Shown here: positions 7,184 through 54,111 of the stretch, piece after piece
Position numbering within the stretch: the first letter of the stretch is position 1
How the letters are laid out: every line of letters starts with the position of its first letter
Origin: Paracrocinitomix mangrovi
Lineage (GTDB): Bacteria > Bacteroidota > Bacteroidia > Flavobacteriales_D > Crocinitomicaceae
Length of the DNA stretch: 64,000 bases
Reading direction: 5' to 3'
Assembly (NCBI RefSeq): GCF_019740355.2
Contig: NZ_CP091819.1
Location: 3,596,001 to 3,660,000, forward strand
Program-made: the position numbers and the translations under genes
The notes under the pieces: generated by a model
What the model saw: only the letters and a program-made list of their open reading frames with translations
The model's database searches: none
Told to the model about the DNA's origin: nothing

Positions 7184-9055
7184 ATGAATTACTTATCGGT
7201 TGAAAACCTCACCAAATCTTTTGGTGCACGTATCATTTTTAAAGATCTCACTTTTGGAGTAGATAAAGGTGATAAAGTAGCAATTGTAGCCAAAAACGGA
7301 ACCGGAAAATCTACCTTGCTTAAAATTTTATGTGGCGACGGAACAGAGGATTCTGGACGCATTGTATATCGCAACGGAATCAGGGTAGATTACTTAGAAC
7401 AGGCAGAGAATTTCCAGGGTAATAAAAGTATTATTGATGAGGTATTAAGTACCGAAACAAAGGAAACAAACGCCATCAAAGCCTACAATAAGGCTCTTGA
7501 AAATCCTACTGATACAGAAGCTTATGAAAAGGCTTTTGAGCAAATGAATATGACCAATGCCTGGGATTATGATGTAAAAGTCAATACCATCCTTTCTCAA
7601 CTAAAAATTGAGGAAAAAAATAAGCCTTTAGGCGAGTTGTCAGGAGGTCAAAAAAAGCGTGTGGCATTGGCAAAAGTGCTGATCAACGAGCCGGATATTA
7701 TGATTTTGGATGAGCCAACTAATCATCTGGATTTGGATATGATTGAGTGGTTAGAGGAGTATTTGTCCCAATCACAGGCCACAATCATCATGGTAACGCA
7801 CGATCGTTATTTTTTAGAAGTGGTGTGCAACACAATTTTAGAATTAGAAGATCAAACCATTTATAAATACACCGGTAACTTCTCTTATTATTTAGAGAAG
7901 AAAGCCGAACGTCAAGAAATTTTAGAAGCTACCATATCAAAGGCTAAAAACCTCATGCGAACTGAGTTGGATTGGATTCGCCGTCAACCAAAAGCAAGGG
8001 GAACCAAACAAAAAGCAAGGGTAGATGCATTTGGAGATTTAAAGAAAGTAGCCACCCAAAAAATCCAAAAAGACGAGCTGGAAATTAAGGTGCAAATGAA
8101 CCGTTTAGGTTCTAAAATTGTTGAATTGCACCGTCTGGGTAAATCATTTGATGATAAAAACCTGATCAATGATTTTAGCTATGTTTTTAAAAGAGGAGAA
8201 AAAGTAGGGATTGTAGGTCCAAACGGATCAGGAAAATCTACTTTTTTAAACATGCTTACCGGTTCGCAAGAGCCGTCAAAAGGTAAAATTGTCATTGGTG
8301 ATACAGTGGTAATGGGCTACTATCATCAAGATGGTTTGAAGTTCAAGCCAGAGAAAAGAGTAATTGAAGTAATCAGAGATATTGCTGAATACATTCCGCT
8401 AACAAAGGGACGTAAAATGTCAGCTGCACAGTTTTTGGAGAAGTTCCTCTTTCCAAGAGACATGCACTTCAATTATGTAGATAAATTGAGTGGAGGAGAG
8501 AAGAAGCGTTTGTACTTGATGACCATTTTAATGAAGAATCCTAACTTCTTAATTCTGGATGAGCCAACAAACGATTTAGACATTTTTACCCTCTCTGTTT
8601 TGGAAGATTACTTGGCTGAATTTGAAGGATGTCTGTTGATAGTGAGTCACGACCGTTATTTCTTGGATAAGTTGGTTGATCACACTTTTTACTTCAGAGG
8701 AGATGGTGAAATAAAAGATGTATTGGGGAATTACACAGCATACCGACAATATCTCAAAGAAGAAACATCAAAAGCGCGTAAGGCAGAAAAGCAAGTAAAA
8801 GAAGCGGCTGCTGAAATCTCAAAAGATAAGGATGCTGAAAAAACCAAGCTCACTTATAAAGAAAAACAGGAGTTTGAAGCTTTAGAAGGTGAAATTGCTG
8901 CGCTAGAAACTGAGCGTGATGACTTGATGGAAAAAATGAATTCAGGATCTGAAGATTCAGACAAAGTCAATCAAATGGCTATTCGTTTAGGCGAAATTGG
9001 CAAACTCATTGAGGAGAAAGAAATGCGTTGGTTGGAGCTGAGTGAGTATGTATAA
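7184..9055 (+). CDS. ABC-F family ATPase, Uup-like
   Basis: 623 residues with two ABC ATPase domains in one chain and no membrane segments. Domain 1 has Walker A AKNGTGKST (about residue 38), signature LSGGQKKR and Walker B IMILDEPTNHLDLD. Domain 2 has GPNGSGKST, LSGGEKKR and FLILDEPTNDLDIF. The linker between the domains is charged. The C-terminus carries a lysine/glutamate-rich coiled coil (KEKQEFEALEGEIAALE), the Uup-type C-terminal domain that binds DNA or ribosomes. ABC-F proteins act on the translating ribosome rather than in transport. The gene lies between a DUF4293 gene and a small membrane protein gene in one operon. Confidence 0.93.
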   Translation: MNYLSVENLTKSFGARIIFKDLTFGVDKGDKVAIVAKNGTGKSTLLKILCGDGTEDSGRIVYRNGIRVDYLEQAENFQGNKSIIDEVLSTETKETNAIKAYNKALENPTDTEAYEKAFEQMNMTNAWDYDVKVNTILSQLKIEEKNKPLGELSGGQKKRVALAKVLINEPDIMILDEPTNHLDLDMIEWLEEYLSQSQATIIMVTHDRYFLEVVCNTILELEDQTIYKYTGNFSYYLEKKAERQEILEATISKAKNLMRTELDWIRRQPKARGTKQKARVDAFGDLKKVATQKIQKDELEIKVQMNRLGSKIVELHRLGKSFDDKNLINDFSYVFKRGEKVGIVGPNGSGKSTFLNMLTGSQEPSKGKIVIGDTVVMGYYHQDGLKFKPEKRVIEVIRDIAEYIPLTKGRKMSAAQFLEKFLFPRDMHFNYVDKLSGGEKKRLYLMTILMKNPNFLILDEPTNDLDIFTLSVLEDYLAEFEGCLLIVSHDRYFLDKLVDHTFYFRGDGEIKDVLGNYTAYRQYLKEETSKARKAEKQVKEAAAEISKDKDAEKTKLTYKEKQEFEALEGEIAALETERDDLMEKMNSGSEDSDKVNQMAIRLGEIGKLIEEKEMRWLELSEYV

Positions 9056-49246: not shown

Positions 49247-49319
49247 TGCGGGGTGGAGCAGTTGGTAGCTCGTCGGGCTCATAACCCGAAGGCCGTTGGT
49301 TCGAGTCCAGCCCCCGCTA
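49247..49319 (+). tRNA. Initiator tRNA-fMet (CAT anticodon)
   Basis: 73 bases fold as a full cloverleaf: acceptor TGCGGGG/CCCCGCT, D-arm GAGC/GCTC, anticodon stem TCGGG/CCCGA around CTCATAA, and T-arm GTTGG/CCAGC with TTCGAGT. Two features mark the initiator: the mismatched first pair of the acceptor (T1 with T72) and three G-C pairs at the base of the anticodon stem. CCA is not encoded. A promoter lies at 49177-49208 and a terminator at 49325. The 3' end is duplicated at 49489-49511. Confidence 0.95.
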
Positions 49320-49511
49320 CTAAGAAAACCTCAGTGCATTGCGCTGAGGTTTTTTTGTTTTATCTAAGACGATTCAAGCTTGCTTGAATGAGGATTGGAT
49401 GAAATAAAAAAAACTGAACTAAGTGAAGGTTTTCTTAGTTAATCCCAACCTTAAGGTCCACTGCCCGAACGCAGTGAGTGGCAGTGAATCCAGCCCCCGC
49501 TACTAAGAAAA
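49306..49511 (+). repeat. 23-bp direct repeat of the tRNA 3' end, flanking 160 bases of stem-loops
   Basis: TCCAGCCCCCGCTACTAAG plus AAAA is identical at 49306-49328 (inside the tRNA and beyond) and at 49489-49511. The 160 bases between hold the tRNA terminator and three more inverted repeats: ATTCAAGC/GCTTGAAT at 49372-49389, AACTAAG/CTTAGTT at 49417-49440, and CACTGC/GCAGTG at 49459-49476. A tRNA 3' end duplicated this way is the usual footprint of site-specific integration. Confidence 0.8.
49325..49357 (+). terminator. Terminator of the tRNA gene
   Basis: AAAACCTCAG / CTGAGGTTTT, nine-base loop, T-run. It ends tRNA-fMet transcription. Confidence 0.9.
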
Positions 49512-49535
49512 GTCTAGACGAAAGTCCAAGCTTTT
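49508..49535 (+). terminator. Degenerate GAAA-loop hairpin after the second tRNA fragment
   Basis: AAAAGTCTAGAC-GAAA-GTCCAAGCTTTT; two mismatches in the stem. The sequence is closely related to the intact GAAA-loop terminator at 54075-54102, 4.6 kb away. The interval 49536-49590 after it is AT-rich without a gene. Confidence 0.5.
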
Positions 49536-49620
49536 TTGTTTTTCAGCAGACATTTTTTTTAATTTACTCTGTGAAAAAGTGTCAAGATATTTTAGGGTTG
49601 AAAAAAAATAAAATCTTTTT

Positions 49621-49650
49621 CCAACCCTAAGTATTATTAATTCGACTTTA
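49621..49650 (+). promoter_or_regulatory. ECF-type promoter copy 1 (CCAACCC-N15-CGACTTTA)
   Basis: CCAACCC at 49621-49627, 15 bases, CGACTTTA at 49643-49650, directly before the ATG at 49653. The same arrangement with the same spacing occurs at 52248 and 52549. The -35 part lies in an inverted repeat (TTAGGGTTG at 49592-49600 with CAACCCTAA at 49622-49630). Strong candidate for the promoter read by the sigma factor at 50357. Confidence 0.8.
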
Positions 49651-49652
49651 TA

Positions 49653-50357
49653 ATGATGAATATTCTATTCAAGAGATATTGGCCAATTTTAGTGCTGACA
49701 ATTTTCGTCGGTTTAACTTCTTGTAAAAAGAGTGAATTAAAGAAACCTGCAGATGTTTCTGTGCAAATGGATATTAATCGTCAGCCTAGTACCCAAGGCC
49801 ATCTAGAGTTTAATTCGGGTTACATACGAATAACCGATTTTAGAGTAGAAGGAACAAGACAAGAAGGTGCTCCTGTTGAAATGAACAAAGATTTTTCTCA
49901 AGGATTATTAATAACCTTTAGTCCTACAATTATGGTTTCTGAGTTAAATCTGGATATTCCTCAAGGAAATTATACAGATTTGGACATTTCATTTGACACT
50001 TTTGATGATTTGGGCCAACCAACTATTCAGGTAGAAGGTACTTATACTAATCAATCCAGTCAAACATTTCCGGTAATCTTTGAATTTGAATCAAGTGAAA
50101 CATTTAGTATTAATGGGGAATCAGAAACGGGAGAACCAATAATAGTTTTAGACAAAAATATTCCTTCCAATACTTTTATTCAATTTGATCCACAATATTG
50201 GTTTGATATTGTGACCATAAATATGTGGGATAATGCAGTTATGGTTGATGTTCAAGGTACAATGACCATTTTAATAAATGAGAGTGTAAATGACGCGATT
50301 TATGACCTAATTGCGGATCGAATAGATGATGCTACTGAGGCAACATTTGGAAATTAA
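49653..50357 (+). CDS. Lipoprotein, first gene of the sigma-factor operon
   Basis: 234 residues. A signal peptide with lipobox (LTIFVGLTSCKKSE) gives a lipoprotein. The mature part is all-beta in character: HLEFNSGYIRITDFRVEGTRQEG, then several strand-like segments and VTINMWDNAVMVDVQGTM. It shows general similarity to DUF4382/lipocalin-like secreted proteins, but I cannot name the family. Its stop overlaps the sigma start (TAATGG, shared A at 50357). A likely role is to sense or modulate the signal, but that is inference. The ATG lies three bases after the -10-like part of the promoter, so the mRNA may be leaderless. Confidence 0.8.
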   Translation: MMNILFKRYWPILVLTIFVGLTSCKKSELKKPADVSVQMDINRQPSTQGHLEFNSGYIRITDFRVEGTRQEGAPVEMNKDFSQGLLITFSPTIMVSELNLDIPQGNYTDLDISFDTFDDLGQPTIQVEGTYTNQSSQTFPVIFEFESSETFSINGESETGEPIIVLDKNIPSNTFIQFDPQYWFDIVTINMWDNAVMVDVQGTMTILINESVNDAIYDLIADRIDDATEATFGN

Positions 50358-50917
50358 TGGACAATAATTTTGAAAACATAGAATTTCTTGATGATAGATT
50401 TCTAGTACAGAAATGTATTGAAGATGATAGAAGATATCAGGAAGCACTTTATAGAAAGTTTGCTAAGAAGATGTTTCAAGTTTGTAAACGTTATGCAAGA
50501 GATAATGATGAAGCTATGGATTTTTTACAAGAAGGATTCATAGAGGTTTTTAAAAAACTTGAAAATTATCGATTTGAAGGATCATTAGAAGGTTGGGTTA
50601 GAAAAGTAATTGTGTTCAGAACCATTGATGTTTTAAGAAAAGAAAAAAGATATCAAGAAATAATAGGAGAACTTGATGCTGAATTGCATGTAGAGGCTGA
50701 AGAGTTTGAATTATTGAGTGGTCAAACTACTGCTGAAAGATTAAGGGAATTGGTTAATCAATTACCTGGTAAAGCAGGATTAGTTTTAAAACTGTTTGTA
50801 ATTGAAGGATTAACGCATCCTGAAATAGCTGAGCATTTAGAAATATCCATAGGAACATCAAAATCACAATTAAATAGGGCCAGAACCCTTATTAAAGCAT
50901 CATTAAAAAGTGAGTGA
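50357..50917 (+). CDS. ECF-type RNA polymerase sigma factor
   Basis: 186 residues. Region 2 is ALYRKFAKKMFQVCKRYA followed by AMDFLQEGFIEVFKKLENY and LEGWVRKVIVFRTIDVLRKE. Region 4 is LVNQLPGKAGLVLKLFVIEG, then HPEIAEHLEISIGTSKSQLN (helix-turn-helix). No region 1.1 or 3 is present, so it is ECF. It is sandwiched in an operon between a lipoprotein gene (one-base overlap) and the gene for a membrane-anchored partner (eight-base overlap). Three CCAACCC-N15-CGRCTT promoters in the module imply autoregulation. Confidence 0.92.
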   Translation: MDNNFENIEFLDDRFLVQKCIEDDRRYQEALYRKFAKKMFQVCKRYARDNDEAMDFLQEGFIEVFKKLENYRFEGSLEGWVRKVIVFRTIDVLRKEKRYQEIIGELDAELHVEAEEFELLSGQTTAERLRELVNQLPGKAGLVLKLFVIEGLTHPEIAEHLEISIGTSKSQLNRARTLIKASLKSE

Positions 50918-52238
50918 TAAATCTGGAAATATTGATGACCTAATTAGAAATGGGTTTGATTCTTCTGATGAAGGATTTGATTTTGATTCATGGAGTAGCA
51001 TGGAGAAGAAATTAAATGCTAATGTGGATATTGATACACAAATTGTTGAAGCGTTCAATCAATTTTCGGATGATTTACCTACTTCTGTATGGCCCGAAAT
51101 TCAGGAAGAACTTGATATTAATACAGTTTGGAAACGAATTGCGAAAAAACTAGAGAAAAAGAAAAGACGTGCGATCATATGGTGGAATATTGCTGGAATT
51201 ATTTTACTACTGGTATTTGCAGGATATCTTTTTAAAGATGAATTTATCTCTGTCAATCAAAGTGAAGATTCTGTTGAATTAAAAGAAAATATAAGCGAGG
51301 TTGATTCGGGTGATATTACTAGTAAAGAAGGCTCAGAAATTGTTGATAATATCAGCTCTAAGGAAAGAGAATTGCAGAATCCTGAAAGTTTTTCGAGCAA
51401 TTCAACCATGTCATTAGTTGATAGACAAGAGGGTTTTGTAGTGAGATCAACAAATGTATCTCTTGATAAAGATATTCGGGATGATAATAATAATACCACA
51501 AGTTTTCAAAAAGAGAATTCATTTATTGAATTATTGGAGCGAACTTCGGTTGAACCAGTAGTGCAGTTAGGATATGAGCAAGGTATGCCAAATATTGAAT
51601 TGCCTGTACCGGGAAAAAATAAAAATTTACACCCAAGAAAATGGATAGTTGGTGGTTTTGGTGCTGTTGATAATGGACTTATTTCAGATGCAACTACCAG
51701 GTCTGCTTTCTCAGCCAATTCAATAAACTCAAATAATTTTACGCTTTCCACAAACTATGGATTGTACGGACAGTTCTATACTCAAAAGAACTATTTTGTG
51801 CAGGCTGAATTTTATTTGAACTCTAGAATTAAAAGATCAACTCAGGAGTATCAACATTTTCAATACTTAAATCATTCATTAAAACTTGATTACTGTCAAC
51901 TTTCATTGTCTTTTGGTAAATCCATTCCTCTAGGAAAAAGTAATCACATCTGGTTCAATCCCGACATAGGACTTTTCGGTGGATATTTAAAATACAGCAA
52001 TGAGTATGTGGATGATGTACTAATTTCAAACAATACTTCACATAAAAAATGGAATTACGGTGTACAAGTGGATTTAGGAATTCAACATGAGTTTAACAGA
52101 TTTGTTGTGGGGTATGGACTTCATTCAAATTTTGGTTTAGCAAACATCTTTCAGGGAACTGAAAAGCAATCAAGCTTCTTAAATGTGTCCCAAACTTTTT
52201 CAAATGGAGTTTATCTAAAGTTAGGTTTCAAAATTTAA
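50910..52238 (+). CDS. Probable anti-sigma protein fused to a beta-barrel-like C-terminal domain
   Basis: 442 residues from a GTG at 50910, overlapping the sigma gene by eight bases. Residues 1-90 are soluble and contain three short repeats, DSWSSMEKKL, SVWPEIQEEL and TVWKRIAKKL (W-x-x-[MI]-x-x-x-L). Then one membrane helix (IIWWNIAGIILLLVFAGYLF, about 92-112) and a Ser/Asn-rich linker. From about 245 on, alternating strands such as RKWIVGGFGAVDN, YGLYGQFYTQKNYFVQAEFYL and FSNGVYLKLGFKI resemble outer membrane beta-barrels. I infer a sigma-binding N-terminus in the cytoplasm and a barrel-like sensor outside. No classic zinc anti-sigma motif is present. Confidence 0.8.
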   Translation: MSDKSGNIDDLIRNGFDSSDEGFDFDSWSSMEKKLNANVDIDTQIVEAFNQFSDDLPTSVWPEIQEELDINTVWKRIAKKLEKKKRRAIIWWNIAGIILLLVFAGYLFKDEFISVNQSEDSVELKENISEVDSGDITSKEGSEIVDNISSKERELQNPESFSSNSTMSLVDRQEGFVVRSTNVSLDKDIRDDNNNTTSFQKENSFIELLERTSVEPVVQLGYEQGMPNIELPVPGKNKNLHPRKWIVGGFGAVDNGLISDATTRSAFSANSINSNNFTLSTNYGLYGQFYTQKNYFVQAEFYLNSRIKRSTQEYQHFQYLNHSLKLDYCQLSLSFGKSIPLGKSNHIWFNPDIGLFGGYLKYSNEYVDDVLISNNTSHKKWNYGVQVDLGIQHEFNRFVVGYGLHSNFGLANIFQGTEKQSSFLNVSQTFSNGVYLKLGFKI

Positions 52239-52247
52239 CACCTTTTT

Positions 52248-52277
52248 CCAACCCTTTACATTTTTCATTCGGCTTTA
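52248..52277 (+). promoter_or_regulatory. ECF-type promoter copy 2 (CCAACCC-N15-CGGCTTTA)
   Basis: CCAACCC at 52248-52254 and CGGCTTTA at 52270-52277, again 15 bases apart. It lies 10 bases after the anti-sigma stop and 18 bases before the ATG at 52296. Confidence 0.8.
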
Positions 52278-52295
52278 AGTGGAGAAAACTATTGT

Positions 52296-52568
52296 ATGGA
52301 TTTAGGTGTCAATATTTTAAAGTTTATAAACTTCAGTTATCCGGATCGTCAAGATGATTTCATTCCTGTTGATGTAATAAATAATCATATAGGAAAGGAG
52401 ACTCAGGAGCCTTTAGTCATTTTTAGAATACTTGACAGTTTATATTTATTGGAAAATAAAAATCTTATAGAAACAACCGCAAATGTAGAGCGGCAGGCGT
52501 TTTGTGTAAGAATTACTGAGAAAGGTAAAAATTATTTAAAAGAATATTCCAACCCCTCAGCAAATTGA
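52296..52568 (+). CDS. Small protein, possibly winged-helix
   Basis: 90 residues. The pattern VNILKFINFSYPDRQDDFI, then LVIFRILDSLYLLENKNLI and FCVRITEKGKNYLKEY resembles a winged helix (helix, wing, ITEKGKNYL as the common wing end of MarR/PadR-like proteins). No signal peptide. It sits behind ECF promoter 2, between the sigma operon and the lipoproteins. The next promoter lies inside its 3' end. Function unknown; a regulator of the same regulon is plausible. Confidence 0.65.
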   Translation: MDLGVNILKFINFSYPDRQDDFIPVDVINNHIGKETQEPLVIFRILDSLYLLENKNLIETTANVERQAFCVRITEKGKNYLKEYSNPSAN

Positions 52569-52578
52569 AACGGCTTAT
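52549..52578 (+). promoter_or_regulatory. ECF-type promoter copy 3 (CCAACCC-N15-CGGCTTAT)
   Basis: CCAACCC at 52549-52555 (within the 3' end of the small gene) and CGGCTTAT at 52571-52578, same 15-base spacing. The ATG at 52598 is 20 bases later. It drives the lipoprotein genes. Confidence 0.78.
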
Positions 52579-52597
52579 AAATAAATAATCAAACGAA

Positions 52598-52957
52598 ATG
52601 AAAAAAATCTTATTTGTGATGTTGTTTATGGCAGGAATTTCTGTAACAATGTCAAGTTGTAAAAAGGCAAATTTAACAAGAGATCAATGGAAGATTGCGA
52701 ATGCAACAGATCTACAAGACAATACCAATATTACTGCTGACTATGCAGGTGAAATATGGGAGTACAGTAAAAATGGAGATTATATTGAGAACGGTTCAAA
52801 AAAAGGAGTTTGGGCTTGGGGTGATGGAAAAAACAAACTTATTATCACTGAAAATGATGGATCTATTGATACTTACAATGTAATTAAAATTAAAAAGAAC
52901 GAGATGGAAATAGAGCTGCCTGGGGATGAAAACCTTCAGCTTGAAAGAATTCAGTAA
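52598..52957 (+). CDS. Small lipoprotein, sigma regulon member
   Basis: 119 residues with lipobox VTMSSCKKAN. The mature protein is beta-rich and lipocalin-like in size: GEIWEYSKNGDYIENG, GVWAWGDGKNKLIITENDG. This pattern (W-E-Y/F, strand with W-x-W, then 'lIIt') matches small extracellular lipocalin-like families of Bacteroidota. It stands behind ECF promoter 3, and the next lipoprotein gene is 19 bases further on. Function unknown; a stress response at the envelope is plausible. Confidence 0.75.
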   Translation: MKKILFVMLFMAGISVTMSSCKKANLTRDQWKIANATDLQDNTNITADYAGEIWEYSKNGDYIENGSKKGVWAWGDGKNKLIITENDGSIDTYNVIKIKKNEMEIELPGDENLQLERIQ

Positions 52958-52976: not shown

Positions 52977-53411
52977 ATGAAAAAATGGAATAAATTATTT
53001 GGGTTAATCGTAATTGCAGGTCTTACCGTAACTGCCACATCTTGTAACAAAGTAAAGGATGGGAAAGTTATCACTGATACTTATGATGGCAACGTAAGTG
53101 TTACATCAACTGGAGCTAATGCTGGTGGAGATTTCACAGGGACAGGAGATAATGGGGTTTACGCCTTTGGTTGGGAAAATAACAAGTCAAAAGCTGAAGT
53201 TAATTTTGACATCACAACTCCTACAGGTTCATTAAACTTTAAACTAGAAGATGCAGACAAAAAAGAAGTGTTAAATGAAACAAGGTATGCTGGAAGTAAT
53301 GATACATATTCTGGTGTAAGTTTGGCTGGAGCTTCTGGAGTTTGGACAGTTACTTTAACATTTTCTGATTTTAATGGAAATGGGAGTTATTCATTGAGTC
53401 CAATAGATTAA
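52977..53411 (+). CDS. Small lipoprotein, second in the sigma regulon
   Basis: 144 residues with signal and lipobox VTATSCNKVK. The mature part is Gly/Ser/Thr-rich with an immunoglobulin-like sheet (SLNFKLEDADKKEV, SGVWTVTLTFSDFNGNGSY). No family recognised with certainty; it resembles secreted beta-sandwich domains. It is 19 bases after the previous lipoprotein gene and probably shares its transcript. A double hairpin follows at 53418-53476. Confidence 0.7.
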   Translation: MKKWNKLFGLIVIAGLTVTATSCNKVKDGKVITDTYDGNVSVTSTGANAGGDFTGTGDNGVYAFGWENNKSKAEVNFDITTPTGSLNFKLEDADKKEVLNETRYAGSNDTYSGVSLAGASGVWTVTLTFSDFNGNGSYSLSPID

Positions 53412-53502: not shown

Positions 53503-53952
53503 ATGAAAAGAACAACGCTTGTTTTAACAATTGCAATTATGTCAATGGGATCATTGATATCATGTAAAAAGTATGAGAATGGAGGTTCAAAAGCAAAAGC
53601 TGAAAAGAATATCCAAAATACCTGGACAATTGATCAATATTATTTTGACGGTACTGATGCTACCAGCCAGCTATTGATAACTAATTACCAAGAAACTTTT
53701 AGTGATGGTGGAACATACAGCAGATCATATAATGATGCAAGTGGTGATCCTAAATCAGAAACTGGAACATGGACACTTGTAGATGATAAAGATAGAATCA
53801 ATATTTCTGGTACAGGTAGTTATGAATTGACTGCTCAAACATCTACAGTTTCAACTTCAGATTATGATATTATCAAATTAGATAAAGATGAATTGTGGTA
53901 TTCATTTACAAATGGTGGAAACACACATGAATTTCACATGGTGCCAAAATAG
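53503..53952 (+). CDS. Lipocalin-like lipoprotein
   Basis: 149 residues from ATG 53503; the frame opens upstream at 53428, but the upstream 25 residues lack a signal, whereas this ATG opens one with lipobox GSLISCKKYE. It has NTWTIDQYYFDGTDATS, GTWTLVDDKDRINISG and IIKLDKDELWYSFTNGG, the pattern of lipocalin-like (DUF4923/DUF5004-like) small lipoproteins. Function unknown. It is 91 bases after the previous gene with hairpins between, so it may have its own promoter; no CCAACCC motif is seen before it. Confidence 0.75.
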   Translation: MKRTTLVLTIAIMSMGSLISCKKYENGGSKAKAEKNIQNTWTIDQYYFDGTDATSQLLITNYQETFSDGGTYSRSYNDASGDPKSETGTWTLVDDKDRINISGTGSYELTAQTSTVSTSDYDIIKLDKDELWYSFTNGGNTHEFHMVPK

Positions 53953-54074: not shown

Positions 54075-54102
54075 AAAAGCCTAGACGAAAGTCTGGGCTT
54101 TT
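54075..54102 (+). terminator. GAAA-loop terminator at the end of the sigma module
   Basis: AAAAGCCTAGAC-GAAA-GTCTGGGCTTTT, one G-T pair, GNRA tetraloop, followed by T-rich sequence. Upstream (about 54030-54073) is a possible remnant of a tRNA 3' end (GTTCAATCC) that no longer folds. Its near copy at 49508-49535 marks the other end of the module. Confidence 0.75.
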
Positions 54103-54111
54103 CTGTTTTTT

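Follow-up and report, generated by a model that had tools for sequence, protein, structure and literature searches.

Does the extracytoplasmic function (ECF) sigma factor encoded at 50357..50917 (+) of this stretch of the Paracrocinitomix mangrovi genome govern a regulon of its own, and what holds it in check? The window, by which we mean the whole 64,000-nucleotide stretch analyzed, contains three copies of the element CCAACCC-N15-CGRCTT, and the initial annotation proposed that the sigma factor reads them and controls its own operon. This proposal is well supported by comparison with related genomes, through a conserved N16 spacer, a match between the −10 element and one sigma factor residue, and the placement of the sites. 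We conclude that the locus is very probably a Dma/Das-type module that governs its own small regulon, in which a barrel protein would hold the sigma factor and the sigma factor would read the three sites. That the sites are promoters, that the sigma factor reads them, and that it is sequestered and then released upon a signal are all steps that we infer.

A scan of the window that allowed a spacer of 13–17 after CCAACCC recovers sites at 49621, 52248, and 52549, all on the + strand, all with N15, and each preceding a gene of one module. The positions, the identical spacing, the −10-like parts (CGACTTTA, CGGCTTTA, and CGGCTTAT), and the gene order given in the initial annotation are all as it described them. 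Its gene description needed two corrections: the third site overlaps the end of the gene for a 90-amino acid (aa) protein, and a third lipoprotein gene is present at ~53503-53952. The CCAACCC/CGRCTT pattern did not occur once when the window was shuffled 100 times. Since relatives differ at the seventh base, the element is better written CCAACC-N16-CGRC. In this form, predicted promoter 1 (49619..49648, +, TTCCAACC-N16-CGACTT) precedes the lipoprotein-sigma-anti-sigma operon, promoter 2 (52246..52275, +, TTCCAACC-N16-CGGCTT) precedes the 90-aa gene, and promoter 3 (52547..52576, +, TTCCAACC-N16-CGGCTT) starts inside the 3′ end of that gene.

The genome-wide motif search that the initial annotation had suggested as a check, run over the whole genome (4,365,762 bases, one contig) with a spacer of 13–17, returns three sites, all within the module, and no others. 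The reversed control pattern gives two matches at the same spacing, so it is the clustering and placement of the sites that go beyond chance, not their number. With up to two mismatches and N15 fixed, 64 sites are found as compared to 84 for the reversed pattern; there is thus no halo of weaker sites. Four near-match sites were inspected and rejected as regulon members: two of the three sites with one mismatch are intragenic, the third has no frame of at least 60 codons ahead of it within 900 bases, and the one inspected site with two mismatches is intragenic.

LipoA, the lipoprotein that opens the operon (49653..50357, +; 234 aa, with the motif LTSCKK), is matched in 31 of 240 family genomes and is conserved beside the sigma factor. 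The set of LipoA, sigma factor, and barrel protein is kept in five relatives (G167, G165, G133, G194, and G081), while the accompanying lipoproteins vary, and with the window these make up the six CGRC modules. In the six module stretches (43,511 bases) we find 16 sites of the form CCAACC-N12-20-CGRC, every one of which has exactly N16. Markov resampling of these stretches yields a mean of 0.03 N16 sites, with a maximum of one in 200 rounds. For 15 of the 16 sites, the start codon of a frame of at least 85 codons lies 6–55 nucleotides (nt) downstream; the sixteenth is near a contig end. ECF promoters have an AAC-type −35, a CG-type −10, a fixed spacer, and a start codon close behind, and the sites have this shape.

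This shape bears on whether the motif is instead an operator for a transcription factor, for example the 90-aa protein, whose gene follows one of the three sites and which has a far sub-threshold hint of similarity to a DNA-binding family. However, the motif is kept in G165, G133, G194, and G081, where no relative of the 90-aa protein is found in the module stretch searched (tblastn, E 0.01; the G133 contig ends just behind the second site), and its −10 part tracks a sigma factor residue, as described below. We regard an operator as extremely unlikely.

Another ECF sigma factor of the genome might read the sites, making the module merely a target, and the genome does encode a second, paralogous sigma/barrel pair whose site has a CAACC −35. 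The operon site of this paralogue, however, is CATC rather than CGRC. The distribution of the fixed-N16 CGRC pattern over the 240 family genomes also speaks against a reader elsewhere: 13 of its 43 sites (in 33 genomes) are at the modules of five clade genomes, and the remaining 30 are scattered over 28 other genomes, at most two in each and on different contigs (total for the reversed control, 18). These observations make a different sigma factor very unlikely and favor the one encoded in the module. The same tie to the clade is seen with TTCCAACC-N13-19-CGRCT in whole genomes. Six genomes with this sigma clade contain 16 sites, of which 15 are at the module and all of those have N16; six genomes with related but different sigma factors contain 13 sites, none at the module and with scattered spacers.

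The −10 elements provide a further link to the sigma factor, a 186-aa protein with regions 2 and 4 only (Sigma70_r2, E 7.1e-13; Sigma70_r4_2, E 7.7e-13). Work on a Mycobacterium tuberculosis SigH–promoter structure led to the proposal that N88 contributes to specificity at promoter position −10 (PMC6411747). Counting seven residues from the conserved Trp (SigH W81, W80 here) places F87 of the window's sigma factor at this position, and the same count reaches the conserved Asn of an aligned ECF sigma factor. Among 35 systems, six have F/Y at the SigH N88 position, and CGAC precedes the operon in 6/6. The other 29 have N/H, and a CAACC site is present in the scanned stretch of 27 of them; 26 of these carry [ACG]TC or CGTT, the preset T-type element, at the appropriate distance, and one (G234) carries CGTA as judged by eye, such that a T occupies the place of the A/G seen in the window's clade. 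Of the two N/H systems with no site in the scanned stretch, G151a has its operon preceded by a lip3 gene with a CATC site, and G378 shows CTGTATC. As a control, we took the remaining CAACC occurrences in these loci, 411 in all, which may include satellite promoters; a T-type element at that distance is present in 43 of them and CGRC in four, as compared to 26/27 (21/22 distinct sequences) and 6/6, respectively, at the operon sites.

The genes around the operons follow the −10 type of their own genome: CATC precedes lipoprotein genes in G115, G151, and G390 as well as a DUF2490 gene in G151, and in G216 the operon and the lip3 gene each have GTCC ahead of them. When its spacing is left free, CATC occurs commonly across whole genomes, where only module sites are informative. 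A TTCCAACC-like element upstream of LipoA precedes the operon in most systems examined. Within the CGRC clade, the operon promoter has CGAC in 6/6 modules, promoter 1 of the window included, and the first site behind the barrel gene has CGGC in 5/6; a role for this difference in tuning expression is a guess. G165 has one more CGRC-N16 site, oriented divergently from the operon promoter, and the gene it leads to encodes a DUF2490 protein (E 6e-19; L065:12108-12785, +); besides the homologue in G151, there is one in G115, immediately ahead of the lip3 gene. An inverted repeat in the window (49592..49630, strand unassigned; 18-nt arms, 89% complementary, 3-nt loop) sets a second, divergent CAACCC upstream of promoter 1, and is possibly a relic of a divergent promoter like that in G165.

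What would hold the sigma factor is the product of the third operon gene (50910..52238, +; 442 aa), a predicted Dma-type anti-sigma factor on the basis of profile, structure model, and hydropathy. The earlier reading of this protein as an anti-sigma did not include its barrel domain. The AlphaFold2 (AF2) model has N-terminal helices at residues 8-68 with low confidence, a helix at 70-117, and a barrel at 244-441. Hydropathy peaks at 2.15 over residues 89-107, which predicts a transmembrane (TM) helix with ~85 residues ahead of it. Residues 109-240 have a predicted local distance difference test score (pLDDT) of <50 and form a predicted disordered tether. The barrel consists of about eight long strands, with 15 of 21 ten-residue blocks from residue 241 on at pLDDT ≥84. 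Foldseek ranks OprG first (E 2.4e-8) and lists OmpA, Ail, and OmpW near the top, and the Pfam profile OMP_b-brl_2 is found in 8 of 13 aligned barrel-protein members at E up to 0.1. The protein is thus predicted to run from the cytoplasm to the outer membrane by way of TM helix, tether, and barrel. Such proteins have been described: Dma/Das of Bacteroides thetaiotaomicron comprises a dual membrane-spanning anti-sigma with an ECF21 sigma factor, and Dma has an N-terminal part, one TM helix, a long disordered tether, and a C-terminal barrel (PMC13088901).

A short motif of the F....AP..W type recurs at the N-terminus of the 442-aa protein, in two copies by a pattern that overlooks diverged copies; four copies are found in the G165 paralogue and four in the paralogue of its own genome. 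The barrel profile matches in 66 of 395 phylum genomes, mostly partially, so that this is not a count of the full architecture, and the 442-aa protein is matched in 36 of 399 order genomes, with many of the matches partial. Within the operon, the LipoA and sigma genes share 1 nt and the genes for the sigma factor and the 442-aa protein share 8 nt, which suggests translational coupling.

Together, these features lead us to propose a mechanism. In the resting state, the cytoplasmic N-terminus of the 442-aa protein would hold the ECF sigma factor at the inner membrane, with the C-terminal barrel in the outer membrane, linked through the disordered periplasmic tether. An outer-membrane signal at the barrel would bring about release of the sigma factor, perhaps through proteolysis or pulling, and LipoA is a candidate partner of the barrel in this signaling. 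RNA polymerase with the sigma factor would then read TTCCAACC-N16-CGRC at the operon, the 90-aa gene, and the lipoproteins behind it. The operon promoter would provide autoregulation, the anti-sigma would provide negative feedback, and the lipoproteins would be the output.

Several points weigh against this picture or parts of it. In the 12 whole genomes considered above, TTCCAACC-N13-19-CGRCT occurs 29 times as compared to 25 for the reversed control, so that the signal lies in placement and not in number. Only 6 nt separate the CGAC of promoter 1 from the first LipoA ATG (window:49643-49655), and the transcript from this promoter may be nearly leaderless, or LipoA may start at a later ATG. 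The lip3 gene has no CGRC site of its own in the window; its relatives in G165 and G151 do have their own site, and lip3 is a possible regulon member through read-through. With regard to the code, the two −10 types were matched as elements, with a distance from CAACC that differs by up to 1 base either way, and a large part of the N/H systems nearly duplicate one another and come from a single genus. In the sigma factor tree, the six F/Y sequences form one group that requires a single change (support 94/95; group present in 96% of bootstrap trees), which makes the residue/−10 switch, as the tree has it, a single evolutionary event. In B. thetaiotaomicron, Dma2 also alters polysaccharide loci far from its own operon (PMC13088901); a strictly local regulon is therefore not the rule for the family. 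Finally, the whole model of the 442-aa protein has a mean pLDDT of 61.9 and a predicted template modeling score (pTM) of 0.45, its match to OMP_b-brl_2 is sub-threshold (E 1.9e-5, 25.3 bits vs a cut-off of 27), and a profile search of its N-terminal part matched no known anti-sigma domain.

The missing domain match and the low confidence at which the N-terminus is modeled speak for an alternative, in which the barrel protein would belong to the outer membrane and have a long extension at its N-terminus, with the sigma factor under some other control. However, the ~85 residues before the TM helix are unlike a signal peptide, the gene overlaps the sigma gene and the pair is kept together in relatives, and the architecture matches that of Dma, whose dma2 deletion phenotype is reported to depend on its sigma gene (PMC13088901). 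This alternative is, in our judgment, quite unlikely, and we retain the anti-sigma assignment.

The genome of P. mangrovi also holds a second, diverged LipoA-sigma-barrel set (G000:C1:2244571-2247298), which has the CAACC −35 and CATC instead of CGRC at its operon. The barrel anti-sigma profile also matches, more weakly, at a third place in this genome, G000:C1:2016314-2016817 (E 2e-8). Beyond the paralogous barrel gene, a TTCCAACC-N15-CATC site on the opposite strand is followed by 155–205 nt that end in a terminator. We describe this stretch as a putative sigma-dependent small RNA, with loci at L063:8041-8276 (G000:C1:2244040-2244275), L066:8280-8503, and L074:1667-1852. It contains no closed frame of >42 codons, the three folds are more stable than those of shuffled sequences (z −5.2, −2.9, and −3.6), and CCAGTTAACCAA is invariant across the three sequences. 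A closing helix appears in the single folds and is unaligned in the MAFFT alignment, so that its conservation is a reading only; RNAalifold on that alignment gave no net covariation support (term +0.23), and no Rfam family reached threshold. A model built from the three sequences recovered only those three in the 240 family genomes, and the RNA is therefore not a general part of these systems. Separately, a CATC-type N15 site at G000:C1:2257420-2257446, 10 kb from the paralogue, lies ~35 nt before a gene for a 95-aa protein and is a possible distant member of the paralogue's regulon; the neighboring gene product has a sub-threshold Por secretion tail (24.4 vs 27 bits).

The two systems allow a more tentative proposal, to which we give slightly less than even weight. 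A change of one sigma factor residue, from N/H to F/Y at the SigH N88 position, may have rewired the −10 base from T to a purine, with the adjacent regulon promoters following; two paralogous modules with the same −35 would thus be insulated from one another in one genome, and the sister module would drive a structured small RNA.

The remaining genes of the module are less easily placed. The 90-aa protein (52296..52568, +), which the initial annotation considered a possible winged helix, has no Pfam match and a far sub-threshold match to NCBIfam Sso10a_fam (E 0.043, 13.8 bits vs a cut-off of 60); Sso10a we take to be a winged-helix protein, so that the idea keeps a distant hint in its favor. 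Since a relative is found in only one (G167) of the five other CGRC modules, the protein is not a core part. Three lipoprotein genes follow: lip1 (52598..52957, +; 119 aa) with sub-threshold similarity to Lipocalin_4 (E 0.008), lip2 (52977..53411, +; 144 aa), and lip3 (53503..53952, +; 149 aa), again with sub-threshold similarity to Lipocalin_4 (E 0.0013). No match to lip1 is found in the G167 module stretch, where promoter 3 is kept and lip1 is apparently reduced to a few codons before lip2 (L062, ~7690-7743). The AF2 model of LipoA is confident and mostly beta (mean pLDDT 90.2), and Foldseek returns no match at E 0.001. VIA-align gives MbnP at Z 9.0 (root-mean-square deviation 4.3, 173 aligned) and Bacteroides adhesion/fimbrial proteins at Z 6.7-7.8, scores not far from what the tool describes as common. 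As Pfam MbnP is found in 1 of 13 LipoA members (E 0.052), the modeled resemblance to MbnP is an uncertain lead only.

The module lies directly after a tRNA-Met gene (49247-49320), and its right edge is marked by a terminator-like hairpin (54075..54102, +); the stretch has four such hairpins as compared to 2.5 expected in shuffles. Two 36-nt terminator-like direct repeats, 86% identical, flank the module (49508-49543 and 54075-54110), a repeated piece of the tRNA 3′ end lies beside them, and the G165 module is near a tRNA-Ser. Frames of at least 120 codons outside the module in 38001-64000 of the window are not found at the module loci of the five relatives (E 1e-12), apart from one gene in G194. 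As the flanking genes are mostly not shared, the module may be mobile. An Rfam search of the window stretch gave only the tRNA above the gathering score; a psbM 3′ untranslated region model over promoter 1 (38.1 vs 52.7 needed) was taken as chance.

These results matter because Dma anti-sigmas were described only recently, and little is settled about the signals they sense or the genes they directly control. With a promoter code legible in the sequence itself, the direct regulon would become predictable one genome at a time, which here means three promoters, all adjacent. The matched change of sigma factor residue and promoter base offers a natural experiment on ECF promoter specificity, and the two systems that this genome carries, alike at −35 but not at −10, are a concrete case of possible insulation between paralogous sigma factors. 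No promoter for any Dma/Das system was found in the accessible literature, which left out the first Dma paper. As far as that literature goes, what is new is the promoter code, its match to one sigma factor residue, the confinement of the few sites to adjacent genes, and the paralogous system in the same genome with a different −10 and a putative structured small RNA.

The initial annotation knew of no described system with this promoter and gene set. The promoter code does seem new, but a sigma factor with a membrane-spanning barrel anti-sigma has been published, and we assign the module, by its predicted architecture, to the Dma/Das type rather than to a new kind. The proposed route resembles FecI/FecR/FecA, in which an outer-membrane event acts through a membrane-spanning regulator on an ECF sigma factor; here, however, sensor barrel and anti-sigma would be one chain, the barrel is OprG/OmpA/OmpW-like, and no FecR domain is matched. 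RpoE/RseA likewise pairs an ECF sigma factor with a TM anti-sigma, and the E. coli regulon includes MicA and RybB, as the paralogous system here may include a small RNA. In contrast to RpoE/RseA, the 442-aa protein has no RseA domain match (at E up to 1, neither FecR nor RseA is found and OMP_b-brl_2 alone is matched), the barrel lies within the anti-sigma, and the sites are few and adjacent. The closest likeness is to Dma/Das, which shares the adjacent ECF sigma factor and the order of N-terminal part, TM helix, tether, and C-terminal barrel predicted here. When dma2 is deleted in B. thetaiotaomicron, its operon and the neighboring genes show some of the strongest upregulation (PMC13088901), which parallels the predicted sites at the operon and its neighbors here. 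The two differ in that the host here belongs to the Crocinitomicaceae, the first operon gene encodes a lipoprotein that has not been assigned to a family, and the satellites are lipoproteins, with DUF2490 in some relatives, as opposed to the DUF4858/DUF4943 genes, NigD1, and polysaccharide loci described there.

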